From: a virus
Virus record (IMG/VR): IMGVR_UViG_3300042309_002738
Coordinates: 1 to 49,649 of that record
Reading direction: 5' to 3' (one strand)
DNA: 49,649 nucleotides
Shown here: positions 19,485-40,879 of the stretch, in pieces
Numbering within the stretch: the first letter of the stretch is position 1
How the letters are laid out: every line of letters begins with the position of its first letter
The notes under the pieces: model-generated
Seen by the model: the letters and a program-made list of their open reading frames with translations, nothing else
What the model was told of the DNA's origin: nothing
Databases searched by the model: none
Program-made: the position numbers and the translations under genes

Positions 19485-22400
19485 TCACTGTACCTGTTGT
19501 AGGTTGTTGGCAACAACGAAGTCAAGTGAGACGAACTCGATCGATTTGACAGGCTGGACGAAGATCTTACCACGAACCGTGTTGTTCTCAACGTCTGTCT
19601 GTGATGTTGTTGTTGCATCAATGATGACTCTGAACCTCTCGAGACCGCTGAGGGCCTGGATCCTCTGTAGACGTGGTGTGACGGCTGCGGAGAACCTTGC
19701 GAGTGTTGCTTCGCGATTTGGCTCGAAGAGGATGCCTTGCGCAATCTCACGAACCTGGCGCCTGATCTCGATGAGGAGGCGACGGACATTGACACGATCA
19801 AGTGCAGATGATGCAACCTGTAGCGTCTTCTGTCCCCAGACCACGAGTCCTGATGCTGGGTTTGTTCCAGATTTTGGAGCTCCGACGAATCCAACGATTG
19901 GATTTAGCCTGTCGTTGTAGAGACCATCGAGATCTTCCTCCTTCAACCTTACCCTGCTCTCGAGGGCCTGTTGTGGTAGAGCGCCGCGGGCGAAACCTGC
20001 TGGTGCAAACCAGGGATGTCCAACTGCGTCATTCAATGACAGTGCGCCGAGAACAAGTGCAGAAGGTGGAACATATAAGTTATTTCTGTCTGGAGCAGCA
20101 TAAAGGATGTCTGGGAAGTATGCAGCTGCGAAAGAGTTGTCTATGTTACGATCCCTGAATGAATTGATTGTCTGAACAACTGAAACGATGTCACAATCAT
20201 GTCTTACTTCGTATTCGGCATCAGTTCCCTCTTCTTTATATTGCTCGACGTCCATGAGGTATAGAGCGTCAAATCTCTCTTCTACAGCAACAGTTGCATA
20301 GTCTGTTACTATTGGGTGTCGTATGCCAGGTATTGCAAGGAGTTGTATATCAAGGTTTGTTACGTTCTTCATGATATCTACAGCTTTTACAAACGCTTTC
20401 ACGTTTGGTCCTTCTGTAAGACCTCTTCCATTACTTGCAACCATATCAGATGATACTGCGTTGTTTGTTATTCTTGCTTCATCTTCATCAAAGATATTGA
20501 CACCATCAAATCCACCCTGCATGAATAGTGTAAACTTTGCATATCTTCTGTTTATTGTCTCATTCAAATCAGAGACCTGGAATGCTCTTGTCTTGTTTGA
20601 ATCATTGGCTGCTATATTTCCATTTCTAACATAAGAAGCTGAGTGCCACTTTAGGGTGTCTGCTGCTCCGCTAGAACCTGTTGCAACCTGTATGTTTTCA
20701 AGTGTAAAGATGTTGTTATTGAATCTATCGGCATCAAGAATACCATTTGCTGCGGTGTCTGCTACACCAGAGTTATCTCCAACAACAAAGTTTTGTTGTG
20801 TAGTAGCAAAACCAGGGAAGTACTTTGTGAATGATTCTATAGATTTATTCACAAGAACAGATGAGTTTGGTTTTGTTATCAAATCAACTTGTTCAAATTG
20901 TGTACCCCAATAGAAGTTTACATTCGCAGATTCAGTTGCACTTCCTATAACTCCGTCAGTTACCTTTTTTCTGAAAGGAACGGGTGGTTGTACAACCTTA
21001 CGTAGAATTTCCTTGTCTTTTGAACCGCCTGCAGGACTCGTGTCAGTGTCACTAATGTTATTTCCTAACGTCGGAAACACTGCTGTACCTGATGTTACGA
21101 GGTGGTAAGCGCCCCTGAATCCTATTGGAAGTGCCGTTGGATCAATAAACTCGTTTGCAACTTCATCAGAAACTTCTACCCTAACGTAGTTAGAGCGGCT
21201 TGGGTATGCACCCTCAATCACAAGCTTTTGCTCTTCTGCATCACGATCAAAGTCAAAGTATGAATTTATGTCTCCTATCATCTTTGCTATGTAACGAGGT
21301 GACGTTGGATTCAAGTCACATACAAATGCTTCCCCTGATGAAATCAGCGTTGGTGTTGAATCTCTATCACCCCATCTTCTTATTCTTATTGTGAATGAAC
21401 CATATTTGTTGACTGGGTCGTTTGATGGTGTGATGTTTTCTATTGATATCTTGTAAAGATTTGATATGTTAGCGCCTGCATCTAACGCATGAAGCCTGAA
21501 AAGATTTACAGGTTTTCCACCAAACTTTTGTGAAATTACCCATGGTGATTTTGCGTAATTAAATCTATCTTCAAAACTTTCATAATTTGGTATCGTAGAA
21601 GTCCCAGTGTTTCTTGCAATTGAAGAAGTGATTATAAATGCTGAATTTTCAACTCCAACTTTTCCTTTATAGAAAGAATATACATCACTTACATCTGCAC
21701 CATGTGTACCTGAAAGAATACCGACACCAGTTAGCTCAGCAACTGCAGGATGTATGTCCCAGTGAGTATATAGATAATGTCCTTTTTCTTGTAATTTTAA
21801 AGGATCTCTATTTAGAACATTACCAAAGTAATTGTTAGAAGATGGATCAAATGACGCAGTTACTACATTTGGGCTGTTTGCGTCAAGTCCTTTATGACCA
21901 TTCAGAAGTAATACGAAGTCCTGCTTTTCAACACCGTTATCCATTAAAGTAACAGTACCAAAAGTTGCTCCACTTAGATATTGTGGTGAATCCATCGTTG
22001 CAGTCAAGTTAGAGGCTGGAGCGCTTGAGTCAGGTGCACCAACAAGTGATGATGATAATCTAAGAAGAACGCCAGAGGCAGCCATCAATACGCCTCTTAC
22101 GATTGGTACTGCTTTATTTTCTCCAGCTAATTGTAAACCTGCATCACTAAAGAAAGTAGATGCAAGAGATTCTGACATGTAACAACCAAGGAAATATGTT
22201 CTTCCTAGATCACCACCAAAATTTGCAAATTCATTTTTATCTAACTTGCCAAGGGTTCCACTTGGTTGTTGCTCACCAACAACAAACCCAGCACCAGTGA
22301 CAGATCCAGGATAAACGCCGGCTCCACCTTGTCTCTCAAGGCCGTCTCCGACTCCGAGAACTCGCAAGTATGATACTGCTCTTGCATTTCGCAACCATTC

Positions 22401-22616
22401 AAGAACCGCGATGGGTCCAAAGTGTTTGCTATCTACAGTTCCAAATTTTGATTGAAAGTCTGATAAAGTACCCACTGTTATTGGTACAAAGGCTGGGCCT
22501 TTTTTCGAAGTACCAATAACACCCGCTGGGATACCAACAGGTTGTTGTGTAAGAGGTCCCGAAATATCGATTTCATTTGCTGTTACGCCCGCGGCGCCTA
22601 GTTTTAGCTGTGCCAT
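19485..22616 (-). CDS. 18: Tail sheath protein (copy 1)
   Basis: 1043 aa. The N-terminus (NEIDISGPLTQQPVGIPAGV, then GTSKKGPAFVPITVG) and C-terminus (RVNVRRLLIEIRRQVREIA, then GKIFVQPVKSIEFVSLDFVV) are diagnostic of myovirus contractile sheath proteins; T4 gp18 is 659 aa, so there are large insertions between. The subunits polymerise around the tube and contract to drive it through the host envelope. It lies 54 bases after a second, related sheath gene. The 3' part of the gene (about 19.5-20.0 kb, conserved C-terminal core) has clearly more C/G-ending codons than the middle of the gene. Confidence 0.93.
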   Translation of the reverse strand: MAQLKLGAAGVTANEIDISGPLTQQPVGIPAGVIGTSKKGPAFVPITVGTLSDFQSKFGTVDSKHFGPIAVLEWLRNARAVSYLRVLGVGDGLERQGGAGVYPGSVTGAGFVVGEQQPSGTLGKLDKNEFANFGGDLGRTYFLGCYMSESLASTFFSDAGLQLAGENKAVPIVRGVLMAASGVLLRLSSSLVGAPDSSAPASNLTATMDSPQYLSGATFGTVTLMDNGVEKQDFVLLLNGHKGLDANSPNVVTASFDPSSNNYFGNVLNRDPLKLQEKGHYLYTHWDIHPAVAELTGVGILSGTHGADVSDVYSFYKGKVGVENSAFIITSSIARNTGTSTIPNYESFEDRFNYAKSPWVISQKFGGKPVNLFRLHALDAGANISNLYKISIENITPSNDPVNKYGSFTIRIRRWGDRDSTPTLISSGEAFVCDLNPTSPRYIAKMIGDINSYFDFDRDAEEQKLVIEGAYPSRSNYVRVEVSDEVANEFIDPTALPIGFRGAYHLVTSGTAVFPTLGNNISDTDTSPAGGSKDKEILRKVVQPPVPFRKKVTDGVIGSATESANVNFYWGTQFEQVDLITKPNSSVLVNKSIESFTKYFPGFATTQQNFVVGDNSGVADTAANGILDADRFNNNIFTLENIQVATGSSGAADTLKWHSASYVRNGNIAANDSNKTRAFQVSDLNETINRRYAKFTLFMQGGFDGVNIFDEDEARITNNAVSSDMVASNGRGLTEGPNVKAFVKAVDIMKNVTNLDIQLLAIPGIRHPIVTDYATVAVEERFDALYLMDVEQYKEEGTDAEYEVRHDCDIVSVVQTINSFRDRNIDNSFAAAYFPDILYAAPDRNNLYVPPSALVLGALSLNDAVGHPWFAPAGFARGALPQQALESRVRLKEEDLDGLYNDRLNPIVGFVGAPKSGTNPASGLVVWGQKTLQVASSALDRVNVRRLLIEIRRQVREIAQGILFEPNREATLARFSAAVTPRLQRIQALSGLERFRVIIDATTTSQTDVENNTVRGKIFVQPVKSIEFVSLDFVVANNLQQVQ

Positions 22617-22669
22617 CTACGATGCTCCATTTTAGCTGCTAGTTAACTATATCGTTCACTTCAAATTTC

Positions 22670-25600
22670 TCACACGAACTGAACACCAGCGTTTGTGATT
22701 ATGAAGTCAATTGCAATAAACTCGATTGACCTGGTTGGTACTATGACTATTCTTCCGTTCAACCTGTTCAAATCTATGTCTTCTTGCGTGTTATTCGTTT
22801 CATTCATTACAACCTGGAATGCTTCAACACCTGCTTGTGTTTGAATCAGACCTAATTGAAATACAGCATCTGCTACGAAACGATTTCTAACAGCTGGTGT
22901 GTTCTGTTCGAATACCAACTTGTTAGCAATTCCTATGATTATTCTCTTCACCTCAAGCAGTAGACGTCTAACGTTTACTCTATCAAGTGCAGACTTGCTT
23001 ATCTGTAACGTCTTTTGACCGAATATGACGAATCCGAGTCTTGGGAACGTTGCGATTGGATTGATTCTTGAATCATATAGAACATCTCTGTCTAGCACAT
23101 TAAGTCTTACTGAGACATTCTTTACAAAGTCTAAAGCCGCTCTATTGAAACCTGCTGGTGCAAACCATGGATATGCAACCCTGTCATTGAAACCAAGGGC
23201 ACCCAATGCAGCAACTGAAGCAGGAACTTTTACTCTCTTTGAGTTTGTGGTATCATCTATGAATACATCTGGGAAGTAAGTAGAAACATAATTGTTATCT
23301 ATTGTTCTTGCATCAAAGTAGTTTACTGTCTTTTGTATGCTTGGTTTTACGGTTGAATCATCATAAAGCCTGTAACCATCATCGCTATATGATGGTATAT
23401 CCATCACATGCATTGCAAGACCGTAATCCTTTACTTTCTTAGACGCAATGTCATTTATGTAAGGTTCGCGTATACCAGGTATTGCTAGTAGATTTACTCC
23501 TACGATGTATGGATCAGTCATGATATCAATTGCTGTTGTATAAGAAGCAACTCCGTTGTTGTCCTTACCAACACCATTTTGGTTTATATCAAATCCATCA
23601 GGAATATATGTTGTTGCTGCACCACCGACCCCAAGAAGATCCGAATCAAAGGAGACAGACTTGTCATTCAGTCTTCTTGCGTTACGATCTAGATAGTTTA
23701 CACCATCAAATCCACCATACATAAAGTTGGTGAACTTTGCATAAGTAGAGAACCTATTGTACGTTGCTGTTGTTGCCTTTGAAAGAAGTGTAGCCAAAGT
23801 AACCCTGCTGACACCATTATCAGAGACAGAGTAATCAGTTGAATCAGGTATTCCATTTCTGATATACGCTGCTTCTCTCATATGTAAGTTTGCAGAACCT
23901 GTTACATCATTGACTGATTGATTTGCAAGCGCAACCTTTGCAAGGGTAAACTTGTTATCATTGAATGCATCAACATTTGATCCCGTGTGTAATGCATCTA
24001 ATTTTTCAATACCCATGAACTTTGTGAAAGATGCGATTATGTTGTTTTTTTCACCAACGACGTTGTTGTTCAGAACCTCATTTGCAAGGGTTGTTGCATT
24101 ACGTTCGAACTTCACTCCCCAATATAGTGCAGGTACTGTAATTTCTTTTACTCCAGGTGATCCTGCTAACCCACCAGCTGTACTAACTTCACCTCTTGTA
24201 ACCTTGAATCTATAAGGTATGGGTGGAAGAACAGAACCAGAAAGTAAGTGATTGCTAGATATCCCAGCCATACCCAATCTTGCAGTGCCAGCAGGTATAA
24301 CAGAATCTGCTACAACGTTGTTGTTAGTCTTTAGAAGTGAAGGACCATGGAATCCGAATGGTAAACTAGTATCTGGTACTAATTTCTTGTCTACCATGTC
24401 AGACATGATAATTCTTACATACTTCGATTGATTCGGATATTTACCGCTTGCTATCAAACGACGTTCTCTTGCGTCGAATGAATCAAAATGGAAAGAAACC
24501 TTGCGATCACCTATCAATTTAGCAATATAATTGTCTGAATCTGGATCTAGAGTACAATTGCTAAACTGTTCAAGTATTACTGGTGTGATATCGCTATCAT
24601 TGAAATCTCTTATCTGAACGTTGAACGTTCCATACCTATTCGTGTTGTCCGCAGATGCCTTTACATTTGATATAGAAATTTTGTAAAGTTTGTTTGCATA
24701 CTCTCCATCATCAAGCGCCTCAAACTTGAACAAATCATACTCCGTTTTACCGAAAGGTTGAGATATGAACATTGTTGTTTGTGGTGCCTTAAACCTCGTG
24801 TTGTAAGAACCAAATATCTCTCTAAAGCTAAGATTGGGATCGCCTGATGAAGAATCTTTAAGTGAAGAACCGGACAAGATTGCAACATAGCAACTTCCAG
24901 AAACAGATGCAATTTGATCATCAACTGCAAAATCTGCAGCAAGGTAGTGTTGGTAGATATCAAATTTATCTGGATCCGTGTTCAGTAATTTACCAAAGTA
25001 ATCGTCTGCTGACGGATCAAAAGACGCAGAATAAATCTTTACACCTGGTTTTCCTTCATCATTAGCAAATGCCGCACCTAAAGAAGATGAAATAAGAATC
25101 TTGAACTTAGGTTTACCGTTTACAAGTTTTGCCTGTGCATCATCATTCAACCCTATTATAGACGTTGCTGCAGGAACTGCTTCATCACCATCTAATACGT
25201 AGAGCCTAGCGGTATCTGGCGTCATTACAACACCACGAATTAAGTTTACCTTATCATCTACACCTACATTTGGAAACGTTCTATTATCTGTAAACATTGG
25301 CATTCCAAATGCTTCGTTCGCCTGTACTGCATGTTGTGCAGCAAGAAATTGAACAATCTTTGTGTGCCTGCCAGTTCCTGCTTCTGCTGAACCAGTCAAA
25401 AGAAATCCTGCATTTTTTACAGTTCCTTTTGTCAAGGTGTTATCAAAATCGGCAAAAGTTGAATTTGCACCTGCACCAAGAACCCTGAGGTATGTTAAAG
25501 ACGTACGATTCTTTAAGAACTCGTTTACCGCATAAGGACCAAAGTACTTTGGATCAAGATCTCCAAATGTTGTTGAAAACTCAGCAAAGTTTGCAAATGT

Positions 25601-25738
25601 AATCGGAACGAAAGCAGGTCCTTTTGCTGATGTTCCTATAACACCAGCTGGCGTTCCGACCGGACCACCCGTTGTTGGTCCCGATAAATCAATTTCACGC
25701 TCATAAAAATTTGGAGATCTAAATACTTGCTCGGCCAT
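22670..25738 (-). CDS. 18: Tail sheath protein (copy 2)
   Basis: 1022 aa from the ATG at 25738, chosen because AAGGAGA lies 7 bases upstream; an in-frame ATG at 25744 is too close to that ribosome site. Hallmarks are YEREIDLSGPTTGGPVGTPAG, GTSAKGPAFVPITFA, and C-terminal DRVNVRRLLLEVKRII with GRIVIVPTRSIEFIAIDFII. It is a diverged paralogue of the next gene, with the same length and same insertion layout. Both copies may be in one sheath, for example in alternating or regional positions, or one may be specialised; the sequence cannot tell. Confidence 0.92.
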   Translation of the reverse strand: MAEQVFRSPNFYEREIDLSGPTTGGPVGTPAGVIGTSAKGPAFVPITFANFAEFSTTFGDLDPKYFGPYAVNEFLKNRTSLTYLRVLGAGANSTFADFDNTLTKGTVKNAGFLLTGSAEAGTGRHTKIVQFLAAQHAVQANEAFGMPMFTDNRTFPNVGVDDKVNLIRGVVMTPDTARLYVLDGDEAVPAATSIIGLNDDAQAKLVNGKPKFKILISSSLGAAFANDEGKPGVKIYSASFDPSADDYFGKLLNTDPDKFDIYQHYLAADFAVDDQIASVSGSCYVAILSGSSLKDSSSGDPNLSFREIFGSYNTRFKAPQTTMFISQPFGKTEYDLFKFEALDDGEYANKLYKISISNVKASADNTNRYGTFNVQIRDFNDSDITPVILEQFSNCTLDPDSDNYIAKLIGDRKVSFHFDSFDARERRLIASGKYPNQSKYVRIIMSDMVDKKLVPDTSLPFGFHGPSLLKTNNNVVADSVIPAGTARLGMAGISSNHLLSGSVLPPIPYRFKVTRGEVSTAGGLAGSPGVKEITVPALYWGVKFERNATTLANEVLNNNVVGEKNNIIASFTKFMGIEKLDALHTGSNVDAFNDNKFTLAKVALANQSVNDVTGSANLHMREAAYIRNGIPDSTDYSVSDNGVSRVTLATLLSKATTATYNRFSTYAKFTNFMYGGFDGVNYLDRNARRLNDKSVSFDSDLLGVGGAATTYIPDGFDINQNGVGKDNNGVASYTTAIDIMTDPYIVGVNLLAIPGIREPYINDIASKKVKDYGLAMHVMDIPSYSDDGYRLYDDSTVKPSIQKTVNYFDARTIDNNYVSTYFPDVFIDDTTNSKRVKVPASVAALGALGFNDRVAYPWFAPAGFNRAALDFVKNVSVRLNVLDRDVLYDSRINPIATFPRLGFVIFGQKTLQISKSALDRVNVRRLLLEVKRIIIGIANKLVFEQNTPAVRNRFVADAVFQLGLIQTQAGVEAFQVVMNETNNTQEDIDLNRLNGRIVIVPTRSIEFIAIDFIITNAGVQFV

Positions 25739-25820
25739 TACCATTCTCCTTAAGAGGGTATAAATTCAGTATTAAGTATCTTGTAAATCTGAAGTAATCC
25801 AAATCAATTCAAATTTTGAT

Positions 25821-37057: not shown

Positions 37058-37116
37058 CAGCTAAAATCCTATTTCTAATATACAATCAAGAATCTTAAAG
37101 TTTTCTAAGTAAAAAT

Positions 37117-37146
37117 GCCTTTGATGTGAATGCAAAAGGCTTTTTT
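37117..37146. terminator. Bidirectional terminator between fibre genes and tmRNA
   Basis: gccttt (37117-37122) and aaaggc (37135-37140) form the stem, with T-runs on both sides: TTTTTT on the plus strand after 37140 and ATTTTT on the minus strand after 37117. It lies about 100 bases downstream of the tmRNA 3' end on the minus strand and would separate tmRNA from the fibre genes. Confidence 0.65.
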
Positions 37147-37242
37147 ATTTTCCCGGCATTCTAGGCTGATAAATATATTGTGAAGTGCACTCTCGTAACA
37201 ATAGCTTTACTGCTTAAGTTATTATCCTCCTTATTATTTCTT

Positions 37243-37618
37243 TAGTGGAGTTGCAGGGTACTGCCCCCTGGTCCGCAATATCTTTAAGAATCTATTCTTT
37301 CACAGGCTTAGAATGTTTTTTCTCGACTTCATCCTAGTCTATTCGGCTTGACCATTTTTACGACAGATCTGGCCGAAACCCGTTAGTCGTCTCCTGGAAC
37401 CACCTTCCGGGAGAAACCCACCTCATATAATGAGGATAACCATTGGTTGTGACTTTCTGTTTCTAGGTTGTCACCACCCAACCAATCAGGCCGCTAGGGC
37501 GACTGGAGCGTAGTCGTTATCGTTGGCAACTAAACGTCACTTGGATTTTTACCAGGTCCTTCGTGCACCTGGGCCTGCATAGATAATTTCAACACCACGT
37601 CGAGACTATTTCAACCCC
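37243..37618 (-). ncRNA. ssrA: tmRNA (one-piece, phage-encoded)
   Basis: The 574-base gap between coding genes holds a tmRNA of 376 nt. The 5' end GGGGTTG (37618-37612) pairs with CAACTCC (37253-37247) to give a 7-bp acceptor stem with one G-U pair. TCTCGACG near the 5' end is the conserved D-region. The tag frame starts at GCC 37527 after TTTAGTT and reads ANDNDYAPVALAA, then TGA at 37486. A helix CCAGGT/ACCTGG (37552-37572) precedes the tag like pseudoknot 1; a long helix with ATTGG/CCAAT arms follows it. The 3' part has CTAAGCCTGTG and TTGCGGAC, then a T-stem CAGGG/CCCTG. Two oddities: the T-loop is GGCAGTA instead of a TTCRA type, and the 3' end is ACTA, not ACCA. It tags proteins from stalled ribosomes; SmpB would be from the host. 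Confidence 0.93.
37486..37527 (-). CDS. tmRNA tag-peptide reading frame
   Basis: GCC AAC GAT AAC GAC TAC GCT CCA GTC GCC CTA GCG GCC TGA encodes ANDNDYAPVALAA. It has no start codon because ribosomes resume here. The ALAA end is the typical signal read by ClpXP and related proteases. The ANDN beginning is the proteobacterial form. Confidence 0.88.
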   Translation of the reverse strand, partial: ANDNDYAPVALAA

Positions 37619-37631
37619 TCATTAGTTCATC

Positions 37632-37970
37632 TTATTTTCTTTTTCTTCCTCTTGCTTTTTTTACTTCTTTGTCTTTTTTTACCGGTGCAATCATATTGAG
37701 TAACGTTTGATCGTTGGTTGTTTCTTTTATTTTCTTCAACTCATCTTCAAGACCTTGAATCTTGTTTGATTCAGATTTTAGCCATTTATCAAACCCAGAC
37801 AATTTTACTTTTGAATCAGCATCTTCAAGCGTATTAATGATGTGACTTTCAAGCAATTCTATTAATTCATGGTAAGAATCTTCTTCTTCTACAGATAAAA
37901 AATCTCTTTCATATTTTTTTAAACAGTTATAAAGAAATAAAAATTGCCTTGGTTGAACTTGTAAATTCAT
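37632..37970 (-). CDS. Hypothetical protein with basic tail
   Basis: 112 aa, helical and acidic in the middle (LSVEEEDSYHELIELLESHI), with a Lys/Arg-rich C-terminus (KKARGRKRK) that may contact nucleic acid. The ribosome site GAGGT lies a few bases before ATG 37970. It ends 14 bases before the 5' end of the tmRNA, so the two are probably co-transcribed. No family is recognised. Confidence 0.6.
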   Translation of the reverse strand: MNLQVQPRQFLFLYNCLKKYERDFLSVEEEDSYHELIELLESHIINTLEDADSKVKLSGFDKWLKSESNKIQGLEDELKKIKETTNDQTLLNMIAPVKKDKEVKKARGRKRK

Positions 37971-38320: not shown

Positions 38321-38395
38321 TTTATCTCCATTCAGGAATATTTGATTCCTGCATTTGTATGAAGAAATTATAATAACGCTACGTTATGTATCAAG

Positions 38396-38749
38396 TCAAG
38401 ATTTAGGAACGATTTTCTTTAACTCTGCTGCAACTCTAGAAACTTCGTCTGGGTTTGCAAAAATCAACTCTAGAAATGCATCTGCAAGCGCAGTTTTATC
38501 AGTTGAAGCAAGATCAGCTGCTTCTTTTCCGCCTTTTCTTTTCTTGATTGCGGTAATCAACGCTCCCTTTAAATCATCTCTACCTAATTTTTTTGCAATT
38601 GCGGCGGCGACGGAATCAATCGAGCCTGATGTATCAATTTTACCTGAATCTGTTTTACCTGAATCTCCTGGTCCTGCTTCAGATAAGCTTGTTTTTCTAG
38701 CAATTTCCTGCCTGATTATACTTCGAAGTTGTGATTCTGTGATCTTCAT
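38396..38749 (-). CDS. Small protein with MKIT N-terminal peptide (possible capsid-targeted protein)
   Basis: 117 aa from the ATG at 38749, chosen over an upstream TTG because it gives the MKITESQLRSIIRQEIARK peptide shared with three other genes here. L-S-E/A (22-25) is a possible gp21-type cleavage site. A Gly/Asp/Ser-rich linker (25-45) is followed by a helical domain (DSVAAAIAKKLGRDDLKGAL...) that resembles no family I know. No ribosome site is evident; a 10-bp hairpin (38763-38786) lies just before the start. Confidence 0.65.
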   Translation of the reverse strand: MKITESQLRSIIRQEIARKTSLSEAGPGDSGKTDSGKIDTSGSIDSVAAAIAKKLGRDDLKGALITAIKKRKGGKEAADLASTDKTALADAFLELIFANPDEVSRVAAELKKIVPKS

Positions 38750-38762
38750 GACGAATAAATAT

Positions 38763-38786
38763 GGGGATGATTTTGCAATCATCCCC
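38763..38786 (-). other. 10-bp hairpin directly upstream of the MKIT gene
   Basis: ggggatgatt (38763-38772), loop ttgc, aatcatcccc (38777-38786). On the minus strand it lies between the stop of the 147-aa gene and the ATG at 38749 and is followed by ATATTTATTCG. It may be a terminator with a poor T-run, or a structured leader for the gene that follows. Confidence 0.6.
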
Positions 38787-38809
38787 ACGATAAACAAAAT
38801 TCTTATTTA

Positions 38810-39253
38810 TCAGGTTCCAGAGATAGCGCAACTTCCAGAAGAAGCCATGACAAGGAAGCTCTTTCCATCGCTTACAAGAGCAACTGAAGAACCAATTACT
38901 GGTGCAAGTGTGAGAGCACTTCCTTGGTTAGCAGGTGTTGCACCTGGCATTCCTGCAAATACCAGTGTGCCGTTTGCCTCTTGCGAGCCGGTGAGTAAGT
39001 GTGCATGCGTGTCGCTTAGCGACCTGAACACGAATACACCACCAGGAACTGATGACGCTAACGGCATTGTAGTTGTTACGACAGCTGAACCTGATACCGT
39101 GTATACACCAGGTGCGGTCACTGTTGAGTCGGTTGTTTGTGCAACTACCGAAGTTGTAGGAAGAGAAGAAAGGGTTACACTTGAACCAATCTCTAAACCT
39201 GAACCACTCGATTGAACTAGACCTTGTCTATCATTTATTGTAACTTTAGGCAT
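38810..39253 (-). CDS. Probable virion surface/decoration protein
   Basis: 147 aa from ATG 39253, selected because AAGGAGAT lies 7 bases upstream; a longer frame to 39277 lacks such a site. The protein is almost all beta-strand, rich in Ser/Thr/Val/Gly (SSVTLSSLPTTSVV, GVYTVSGSAVVTTTMP, VFRSLSDTHAHLLTG), with one or two cysteines near the end. It resembles small beta proteins that decorate capsids or close vertices. This is a judgement from composition, size and place near head genes; no family motif is diagnostic. Confidence 0.55.
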   Translation of the reverse strand: MPKVTINDRQGLVQSSGSGLEIGSSVTLSSLPTTSVVAQTTDSTVTAPGVYTVSGSAVVTTTMPLASSVPGGVFVFRSLSDTHAHLLTGSQEANGTLVFAGMPGATPANQGSALTLAPVIGSSVALVSDGKSFLVMASSGSCAISGT

Positions 39254-39281
39254 GATGTGATCTCCTTTTGTCCGCAAGATT

Positions 39282-39318
39282 CCGAACCACTGGCGGTGTC
39301 AGTTGATCACTGGTTCGG
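39282..39318 (-). other. Stem-loop in the leader of the decoration-like gene
   Basis: ccgaacca (39282-39289) and tggttcgg (39311-39318) form an 8-bp stem around a 21-base loop. It lies between the 160-aa gene stop and the ATG at 39253, with no T-run. A leader structure or RNA-stability element for an abundant protein is possible. Confidence 0.5.
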
Positions 39319-39340
39319 GCCTGTGAATATTTATTCGCTA

Positions 39341-40216: not shown

Positions 40217-40879
40217 TTACATCCCGAGGTTCTTCATAAATTGCAGGACAGGTGCATATCTTTGTTGTTTTATGTCTAACCTAAGAGGTTCTACGTTATT
40301 GTCCTCGAGCTCTTCATTCATATCCATGCTGTGCTGCCATGAGAAAAAACTGCTTGGTGAAGTATCAAATCCATAAAGATCAAATACTTGTATAAGACGA
40401 TTTGCGACGTCCTCTGATTGCCAATGTTGACCGGTGACAATAACACCACACTTCTTTCCCCATAGAGGATTATCCTCTCCGTACACAGAGTGACGATTCT
40501 CAAGGGTATTCATTCTCTCTATGATTGTTTGAAGTAGTGCAGTATGATTTCCCCACCTCACGGATGTTGCAAAGACAACAATGTCAGCCCACATCAGCCC
40601 ATCGTATATCTGTGGCATCTCATCCTTGCCACCGTACTTTTCAGGTTCTTCTTCTGCATGCTTGTGTGCCCAACACCTATACTTCCCAGATGCAGGATCA
40701 CCACACTGTCTACCTCCGTCTGCATAACAAGAAAGATTCTTTACGATATTCAATTTGTTTGCGTCAACGAACTTTACCTCATGATTCAGTGATTCAGCGA
40801 GTTTTACAACGGTCTTTGCCACAAGCCTTGAAGAAGATGCCCTCTCGTTTGTTGTCGTTGACACTACGAATATTTTCAT
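40217..40879 (-). CDS. Flavodoxin-fold NAD(P)H/FMN oxidoreductase
   Basis: 220 aa. An N-terminal beta strand and phosphate-binding loop (MKIFVVSTTTNERASSSRLV), then ADIVVFATSVRWGNHTALLQTIIERMN (about 98-124), the FMN-binding strand-loop-helix of FMN-dependent reductases (WrbA/FMN_red type). CYADGGRQCGDPASGKYRCWAHK (51-73) adds three cysteines and a histidine that could bind a metal or be redox active. The reaction is probably NAD(P)H-dependent reduction; the substrate is unknown. Presence next to a metal-cluster protein suggests a small redox cassette carried for host physiology. Confidence 0.75.
   Translation of the reverse strand: MKIFVVSTTTNERASSSRLVAKTVVKLAESLNHEVKFVDANKLNIVKNLSCYADGGRQCGDPASGKYRCWAHKHAEEEPEKYGGKDEMPQIYDGLMWADIVVFATSVRWGNHTALLQTIIERMNTLENRHSVYGEDNPLWGKKCGVIVTGQHWQSEDVANRLIQVFDLYGFDTSPSSFFSWQHSMDMNEELEDNNVEPLRLDIKQQRYAPVLQFMKNLGM

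Follow-up and report, generated by a model that had tools for sequence, protein, structure and literature searches.

The question raised by this locus is whether a stretch without a protein gene, lying behind the capsid gene of an uncultured phage, encodes a working tmRNA, and to which of the known kinds of tmRNA it belongs. The window, that is, the whole stretch of DNA analysed here, spans the 49,649 bases of an IMG/VR record from an uncultured virus; its T4-like virion genes include those for the major head protein, the prohead protease, and the tube, together with two for the tail sheath. The region had been described in advance as the only large gap in the window, but positions 38321-39340 (about 1 kb) also lack a PHROGs-supported gene on either strand. 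The two tail sheath genes are adjacent at 19485-25744, and their products, at 1043 and 1024 aa, are long for this kind of protein; a protein of the FMN-reductase/flavodoxin fold is encoded at 40217-40879, between head genes.

The identity of the gene is settled by the Rfam covariance model RF00023, which gave the sole cmscan match in the whole window, at 37243-37618 on the minus strand, covering model positions 1-374 of 374 with 79.6 bits against a gathering score of 47 (E 2.3e-29). These boundaries are identical to those in the preliminary description, which gave no strand, and the tag frame is the same. Read on the minus strand, the RNA starts with GGGGUUGAAAUAGUCUCGACG, and the previously noted acceptor GGGGTTG/CAACTCC (with G3-U70), the D-region TCTCGACG, and the segment TTGCGGAC are all present. 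The tag frame, which follows UUUAGUU, reads GCC AAC GAU AAC GAC UAC GCU CCA GUC GCC CUA GCG GCC UGA and encodes ANDNDYAPVALAA. The gene ends in ACTA (ACUA in RNA), so CCA is not encoded. The earlier claim of a complete one-piece phage tmRNA with this tag is upheld: the match to the covariance model, the tag frame, covariation, and homologues found at this locus all speak for it (Table 1).

Table 1. Features of the tmRNA locus (positions in the window; sequences of the RNA in minus-strand reading)
Feature	Position	Strand	Basis
tmRNA gene (ssrA), one-piece, standard order, 376 nt	37243..37618	-	RF00023; homologues L082-L090, L294, L322
Acceptor stem, 5' strand GGGGUUG, G3-U70 kept	37612..37618	-	double-sided changes at pairs 5, 6, 7 in relatives
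Acceptor stem, 3' strand CAACUCC	37247..37253	-	sequence and pair counts
3' end after acceptor: A (37246), CUA (37243-37245) in the usual CCA position	37243-37246	-	sequence
D-loop AAAUAGUCUCGAC, A-G in place of canonical G-G, alphaproteobacterial type	37599..37611	-	
T-arm CAGGG-GGCAGUA-CCCUG; loop GGCAGUA at 37259-37265, alphaproteobacterial type	37254..37270	-	
Helix P2, 5' strand and 3' strand	37591..37598 and 37275-37282	-	5 of 8 pairs with double-sided changes, every cell paired
Pseudoknot 1 (CCAGGU/ACCUGG and CAC..GG/CC..GUG), upstream of tag	37538..37572	-	covariation, 10 relatives
Resume codon GCC and tag frame ANDNDYAPVALAA, stop UGA	37486..37527	-	sequence; relatives' tags ANDNGYVPVNLAA, ANDNGYAPAALAA, ANDNGYTPAALAA
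Post-tag hairpin GUGAC-...CCUAGAAACAGAA...-GUCAC; loop motif in common with alphaproteobacterial tmRNA	37449..37474	-	
Hairpin GCCTTT..AAAGGC, T runs on both strands; possible bidirectional terminator	37110..37150	.	read from sequence
Small gene, 112 aa, basic tail; 13 bases upstream of tmRNA	37632..37970	-	

The other proposed check had the opposite outcome: ARAGORN reported no tmRNA in the window, most likely because the T-loop is GGCAGUA and not UUCRANN. Relatives whose T-loop is canonical are picked up by the program; L090, which also has GGCAGUA, is missed. Tools built on the canonical T-loop (ARAGORN here) miss this class, and phage tmRNAs with such an elbow are therefore probably undercounted. 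The canonical elbow, a G-G D-loop with a UUCRANN T-loop, is usual, not required by the model, and is absent from the window RNA; the combination of T-loop GGCAGUA and D-loop AUAGU is found instead, as it is in L090 and L294/L295. Since alphaproteobacterial tmRNAs depart from the canonical elbow in the same way, this is no bar to membership in the tmRNA family.

The correspondence with Alphaproteobacteria was followed in a sample of 385 genomes drawn from this class, 284 of which contain the GGC[AG]GUA T-loop, versus 1 for the reversed control. A T-arm scan of IMG/VR gave at least 80 loci; among the matches listed, 62 are permuted (5' half after CCA), L176, L193, L197, L208, L214, and L238 are one-piece, and the others are CDS-less or unclassified, the latter probably truncated where the contig stops. 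In all 132 permuted genes (70 bacterial, and the 62 viral ones among the matches listed), A replaces the first G of the D-loop. The two loops are never mixed in 13 distinct one-piece phage RNAs: five have A with GGCAGUA, and the other eight combine G with a U as second base of the T-loop (Fisher about 8e-4, computed by hand with relatedness ignored). In tRNA numbering, the difference would mean that both partners of the 18-55 contact change together and that the 19-56 contact is preserved. The elbow is where SmpB is located, and its binding requires the D-loop/T-loop contacts (reviewed in PMC3968760). We suggest that the elbow, as the SmpB-binding face, is matched to an alphaproteobacterial host. 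One-piece tmRNAs with the alphaproteobacterial elbow occur also in L292/L293 and L296, with tags ANNNNHFEQRLAA and ANDNAYAITAKAA; the capsid gene of the window's family was not found in these contigs, and the tmRNA of L296 lies on a 78-kb contig rich in tRNA-like matches.

The tag and the hairpin behind it have the same affinity. An ANDN start is common to the tags of all relatives, that is, nine contigs related by capsid, L294/L295, and L322. In the nine contigs, the tags are ANDNDIAPLALAA, ANDNAVAPLALAA, ANDNGTAPLALAA, ANDNSSLPLSLAA, ANDNGIADDEVRIAA, ANDNAFADVPRAIAA, ANDNGIADYALVA (one sequence, two contigs), and ANDNGYVPVNLAA; for the L088/L089 gene, ARAGORN suggests a longer tag frame. A scan of 84,980 species, one genome per species, for ANDNxxAP followed by one of several residues and ALAA yielded 75 loci, with titles naming Devosia, Pelagibacterium, Rhodospirillales, Micavibrio, other Alphaproteobacteria, and a few 'uncultured proteobacterium' entries. 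All 18 of the loci scanned with Rfam models, including one 'uncultured proteobacterium', proved to be permuted RF01849/RF04321 forms, and 68 of the 75 have a GGC[AG]GUA T-loop (57 GGCAGUA and 11 GGCGGUA). The hairpin right after the tag has the loop CCUNGNAACAG in 63 of the 75, in the window, L090, L294, and L322, and in six of the seven distinct other relatives; this loop is lacking from E. coli ssrA and from all six standard-form tmRNAs taken from alphaproteobacterial genomes. The identical tag, in degenerate form, was sought in viral contigs and not found, and no useful paper turned up on the alphaproteobacterial SspB adaptor and the ANDN tag. ANDN tags are carried also by relatives with canonical elbows (L082-L087 and L322), and thus such a tag is no proof of an alphaproteobacterial-type elbow or host.

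Phage tmRNAs as such have been reported before, in 402 of 18,146 phage genomes (about 2.3%; PMC9004378), and 79 phage sequences are held in the 2025 tmRNA database (PMC11915505). The framing in the preliminary description is weaker than its core claim. The standard form of RF00023 includes annotated tmRNAs of phages, among them StarPlatinum (Streptomyces), Cosmo (Mycobacterium), and Marzo (Stenotrophomonas). The window RNA shares with it the one-piece order, the full-length model match, the G3-U70 acceptor, the pseudoknot before the tag, the LAA tag end, and the long P2 helix, but differs in the GGCAGUA T-loop, the A-G of the D-loop, the 3' ACUA, and the failure of ARAGORN to see it. The two-piece forms RF01849/RF04321 are known from Alphaproteobacteria and from phages Phosso (Sinorhizobium), RcXuper (Rhodobacter), and vB_RpoS-V10 (Ruegeria), and also from Methylophilales phage Melnitz. 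With those of Alphaproteobacteria and their phages, the window RNA shares the GGC[AG]GUA T-loop, the A before G in the D-loop, the ANDN..ALAA tag class, and the CCUNGNAACAG hairpin; in contrast to the two-piece forms, it has the standard order, so that a single RNA is expected, another type of pseudoknot 1, and an additional structured stretch past the hairpin. Permuted tmRNA genes are also present in six cultured phages (L345-L350) of Sinorhizobium, Mesorhizobium, Rhodobacter, and Ruegeria; most of them agree with the alphaproteobacterial type in T-loop, D-loop, and hairpin. The records read carry no tmRNA annotation for these genes, and in Ruegeria phage V10 a GOLLD RNA lies about 170 bases upstream of the tmRNA. 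Pf16 was considered as a T4-like precedent and rejected, having SspB and no tmRNA (PMC5587285).

What is truly anomalous here, and was passed over in the preliminary description, is a one-piece RNA with the D/T-loop elbow, the tag, and the hairpin of the alphaproteobacterial two-piece tmRNA. The best match of the window within the clan is RF00023, in standard order and not in the circularly permuted two-piece layout; RF04321 stayed under its cut-off in 42 relative records, including L090 and L294/L295, and relatives without the one-piece form had no permuted tmRNA above cut-off. A full standard-form tmRNA is present in only six of the 385 alphaproteobacterial genomes (L324-L329). Their tags are of non-ANDN kinds (ANNDFEYKLAA, AEDNFEYALAA, AKKSGNVVAFPSRTAAPMAMAA, and others), the T-loop is canonical in four of the four genes read out, and the GGC[AG]GUA pattern occurs in none of the six genomes, which could be either early branches or misbinned contigs. 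Therefore, the combination of one-piece order and alphaproteobacterial elbow is unseen in the sampled bacteria. One- and two-piece phage tmRNAs are both known, and it is the one-piece form with this elbow that appears new; no report of it was found in the available part of the open literature on phage tmRNA and on the one-piece, two-piece, and permuted forms. In Alphaproteobacteria, permutation is coupled to the unusual elbow, and none of the 385 sampled genomes was seen to separate the two. These phages do, and one can ask whether the elbow is due to the SmpB partnership or to the two-piece state.

It might be argued that this is an ordinary phage tmRNA whose origin lies outside Alphaproteobacteria, and that its GGCAGUA T-loop and ANDN tag are products of chance or convergence, unconnected with that class. 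Pseudoknot 1 of the phage RNA, GUGCACGA, is indeed absent from the alphaproteobacterial and viral permuted genes examined, and the relatives with canonical elbows have the same RNA body. However, four separate features (the T-loop, the D-loop A, the tag class, and the CCUNGNAACAG hairpin) all fit Alphaproteobacteria and are absent from E. coli ssrA and the sampled standard-form alphaproteobacterial tmRNAs, and we consider a coincidence unlikely.

The RNA body of L322 is almost that of L294, and the two share their flanking genes, with upstream ORFs 73% identical, and yet the elbow of L322 is canonical (UUCAAAU with CUGG). Different elbows on near-identical, syntenic RNAs indicate an exchange of the elbow within this lineage of phages; since the D-loop and the T-loop are encoded at opposite ends of the gene, a single short conversion tract cannot replace both. 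This pair of RNAs constitutes a natural swap experiment. In the capsid tree, the phages with the alphaproteobacterial elbow fall within one supported set of 14 rows, and most of those with the canonical elbow form a separate group of seven rows with moderate support, L045 being elsewhere. The exchanges in the phage lineage probably took place at host changes. Our tentative proposal, which we hold to be possible rather than probable, is that these phages keep a one-piece tmRNA of the alphaproteobacterial lineage, which either predates the permutation or was rejoined secondarily, and tune it to their hosts by exchanging the D-loop/T-loop elbow together with the rest held constant. Its origin may be a pre-permutation relic, a rejoined two-piece RNA, or a one-piece RNA that gained alphaproteobacterial features stepwise; the type of pseudoknot 1 and the canonical-elbow relatives incline us towards stepwise gain.

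As to function, we put at roughly three in four the probability that this is a functional phage tmRNA, acting in ordinary trans-translation with the host SmpB, alanyl-tRNA synthetase, EF-Tu, and ClpXP. The RNA has a resume codon and a short tag frame ending in a ClpXP-type degron, both conserved in relatives. The tmRNA would be cotranscribed with the small gene 13 bases upstream, the precursor would be cut by RNase P and then trimmed, and CCA would be added by a host enzyme. Once charged with alanine and bound by host SmpB through the matching elbow, it would rescue ribosomes late in infection, and the tagged proteins, with their host-type LAA ends, would pass to the host protease. The SmpB match, the timing, and the benefit are presumptive parts of this scheme, and the dependence on host SmpB is assumed; an SmpB gene was found in none of 31 relative contigs, which are fragments. 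The features of the RNA make an alphaproteobacterium the likely host, and the elbow and the tag together are usable as a host clue for uncultured phages. The preliminary description had suggested competition with the tag of the host as one possible role. Since the phage-encoded tag belongs to the alphaproteobacterial class, has an LAA end, and is thus host-like, competition by a foreign tag is not supported.

An alternative role, which we regard as improbable, is that of a decoy that would bind and titrate SmpB or AlaRS of the host and so inhibit its trans-translation. Such an effect on the endogenous tmRNA has been reported for the CDS-less tmRNA of Mycobacterium phage DS6A (PMC11915505), and CDS-less phage tmRNAs with the elbow described here occur in IMG/VR. 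The window RNA resembles the DS6A form in being a phage-encoded tmRNA-type tRNA-like domain, but in contrast to it has a full mRNA-like domain with a tag; the resume codon, tag frame, stop, and pseudoknot are intact and conserved in relatives, all of them needless for a decoy, which makes this role less likely than rescue. The CDS-less viral tRNA-like domains with the alphaproteobacterial elbow include L175, L192, L198, L200, L228, L236, and L243 (81 nt, near-identical) and L216 (about 80 nt); four such RNAs scanned with Rfam at its cut-offs gave no match. By analogy with DS6A, RNAs of the L175 type are possible inhibitors of the host tmRNA.

The structure of the RNA bears on whether the gene is still maintained. 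The fold is stabler than those of shuffled sequences (z -2.97). In an alignment of four close homologues (the window, L090, L294, and L322), 57 pairs were assigned by hand to the acceptor, P2, pseudoknot 1, the tag hairpin, the post-tag hairpin, a further hairpin, and the T-stem; 96% of the cells in these four rows are paired, with 22 double-sided changes, a result reached by 0 of 500 shuffles, and slid versions of the set drop to 33-42% paired. G3-U70 is invariant in the four relatives while acceptor pairs 5-7 covary. For pseudoknot 1, compared in 10 sequences, 94% of the cells are paired with 19 double-sided changes, and again 0 of 500 shuffles were as high. The blindness of ARAGORN to the gene, the lack of an encoded CCA, and the richness of the P2 helix in G-U pairs could be taken for signs of a degenerate, non-functional relic; this reading is very improbable, as the compensatory changes in the acceptor, T, P2, and pseudoknot 1 helices and the conserved tag frame indicate that the RNA is under selection.

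The phages form a T4-like, uncultured, and partly jumbo family: the capsid protein has hundreds of relatives in IMG/VR, and the nearest capsid records from cultured and deposited phages are just 32-50% identical. Nine of 50 capsid-relative contigs contain RF00023 above the cut-off, and in eight of these the tmRNA follows the capsid gene, on its strand, at a distance of 1.9-3.3 kb; the distance is 4.2 kb in the window and 10.4 kb in L053. A T4-like virion cluster, previously called an unusual place for such a gene, is thus its fixed place in this family. A small gene stands upstream of the tmRNA in relatives as well, and sequence similarity connects most of these genes; that of the window has no Pfam or PHROG match. 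In L007 and L009, the small gene is closely followed by the next gene, without a tmRNA, and these are empty sites. The fixed locus together with the empty sites indicates that the tmRNA is a long-standing, optional gene of this phage locus. A dedicated partnership of the small gene with the tmRNA was rejected, since the gene occurs without it in L007 and L009. The contig, from IMG/VR, does not derive from a cultured phage; even so, that the gene is a piece of host DNA or an artefact of assembly is hardly credible and largely refuted by homologues at the same locus between phage genes on contigs from other metagenomes, and a standard-form gene with this elbow was not found in the 385 alphaproteobacterial genomes. 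Compared by blastn with cultured phages, the tmRNAs of the window and its relatives gave short matches only. Directly upstream of the tmRNA, there is no exact match to a T4-type late promoter, and sigma-70-like sites are no more frequent than in shuffles. The GCCTTT..AAAGGC hairpin lies about 100 bases past the tmRNA 3' end, and its loop of 12 bases is beyond the limits of the hairpin scan.
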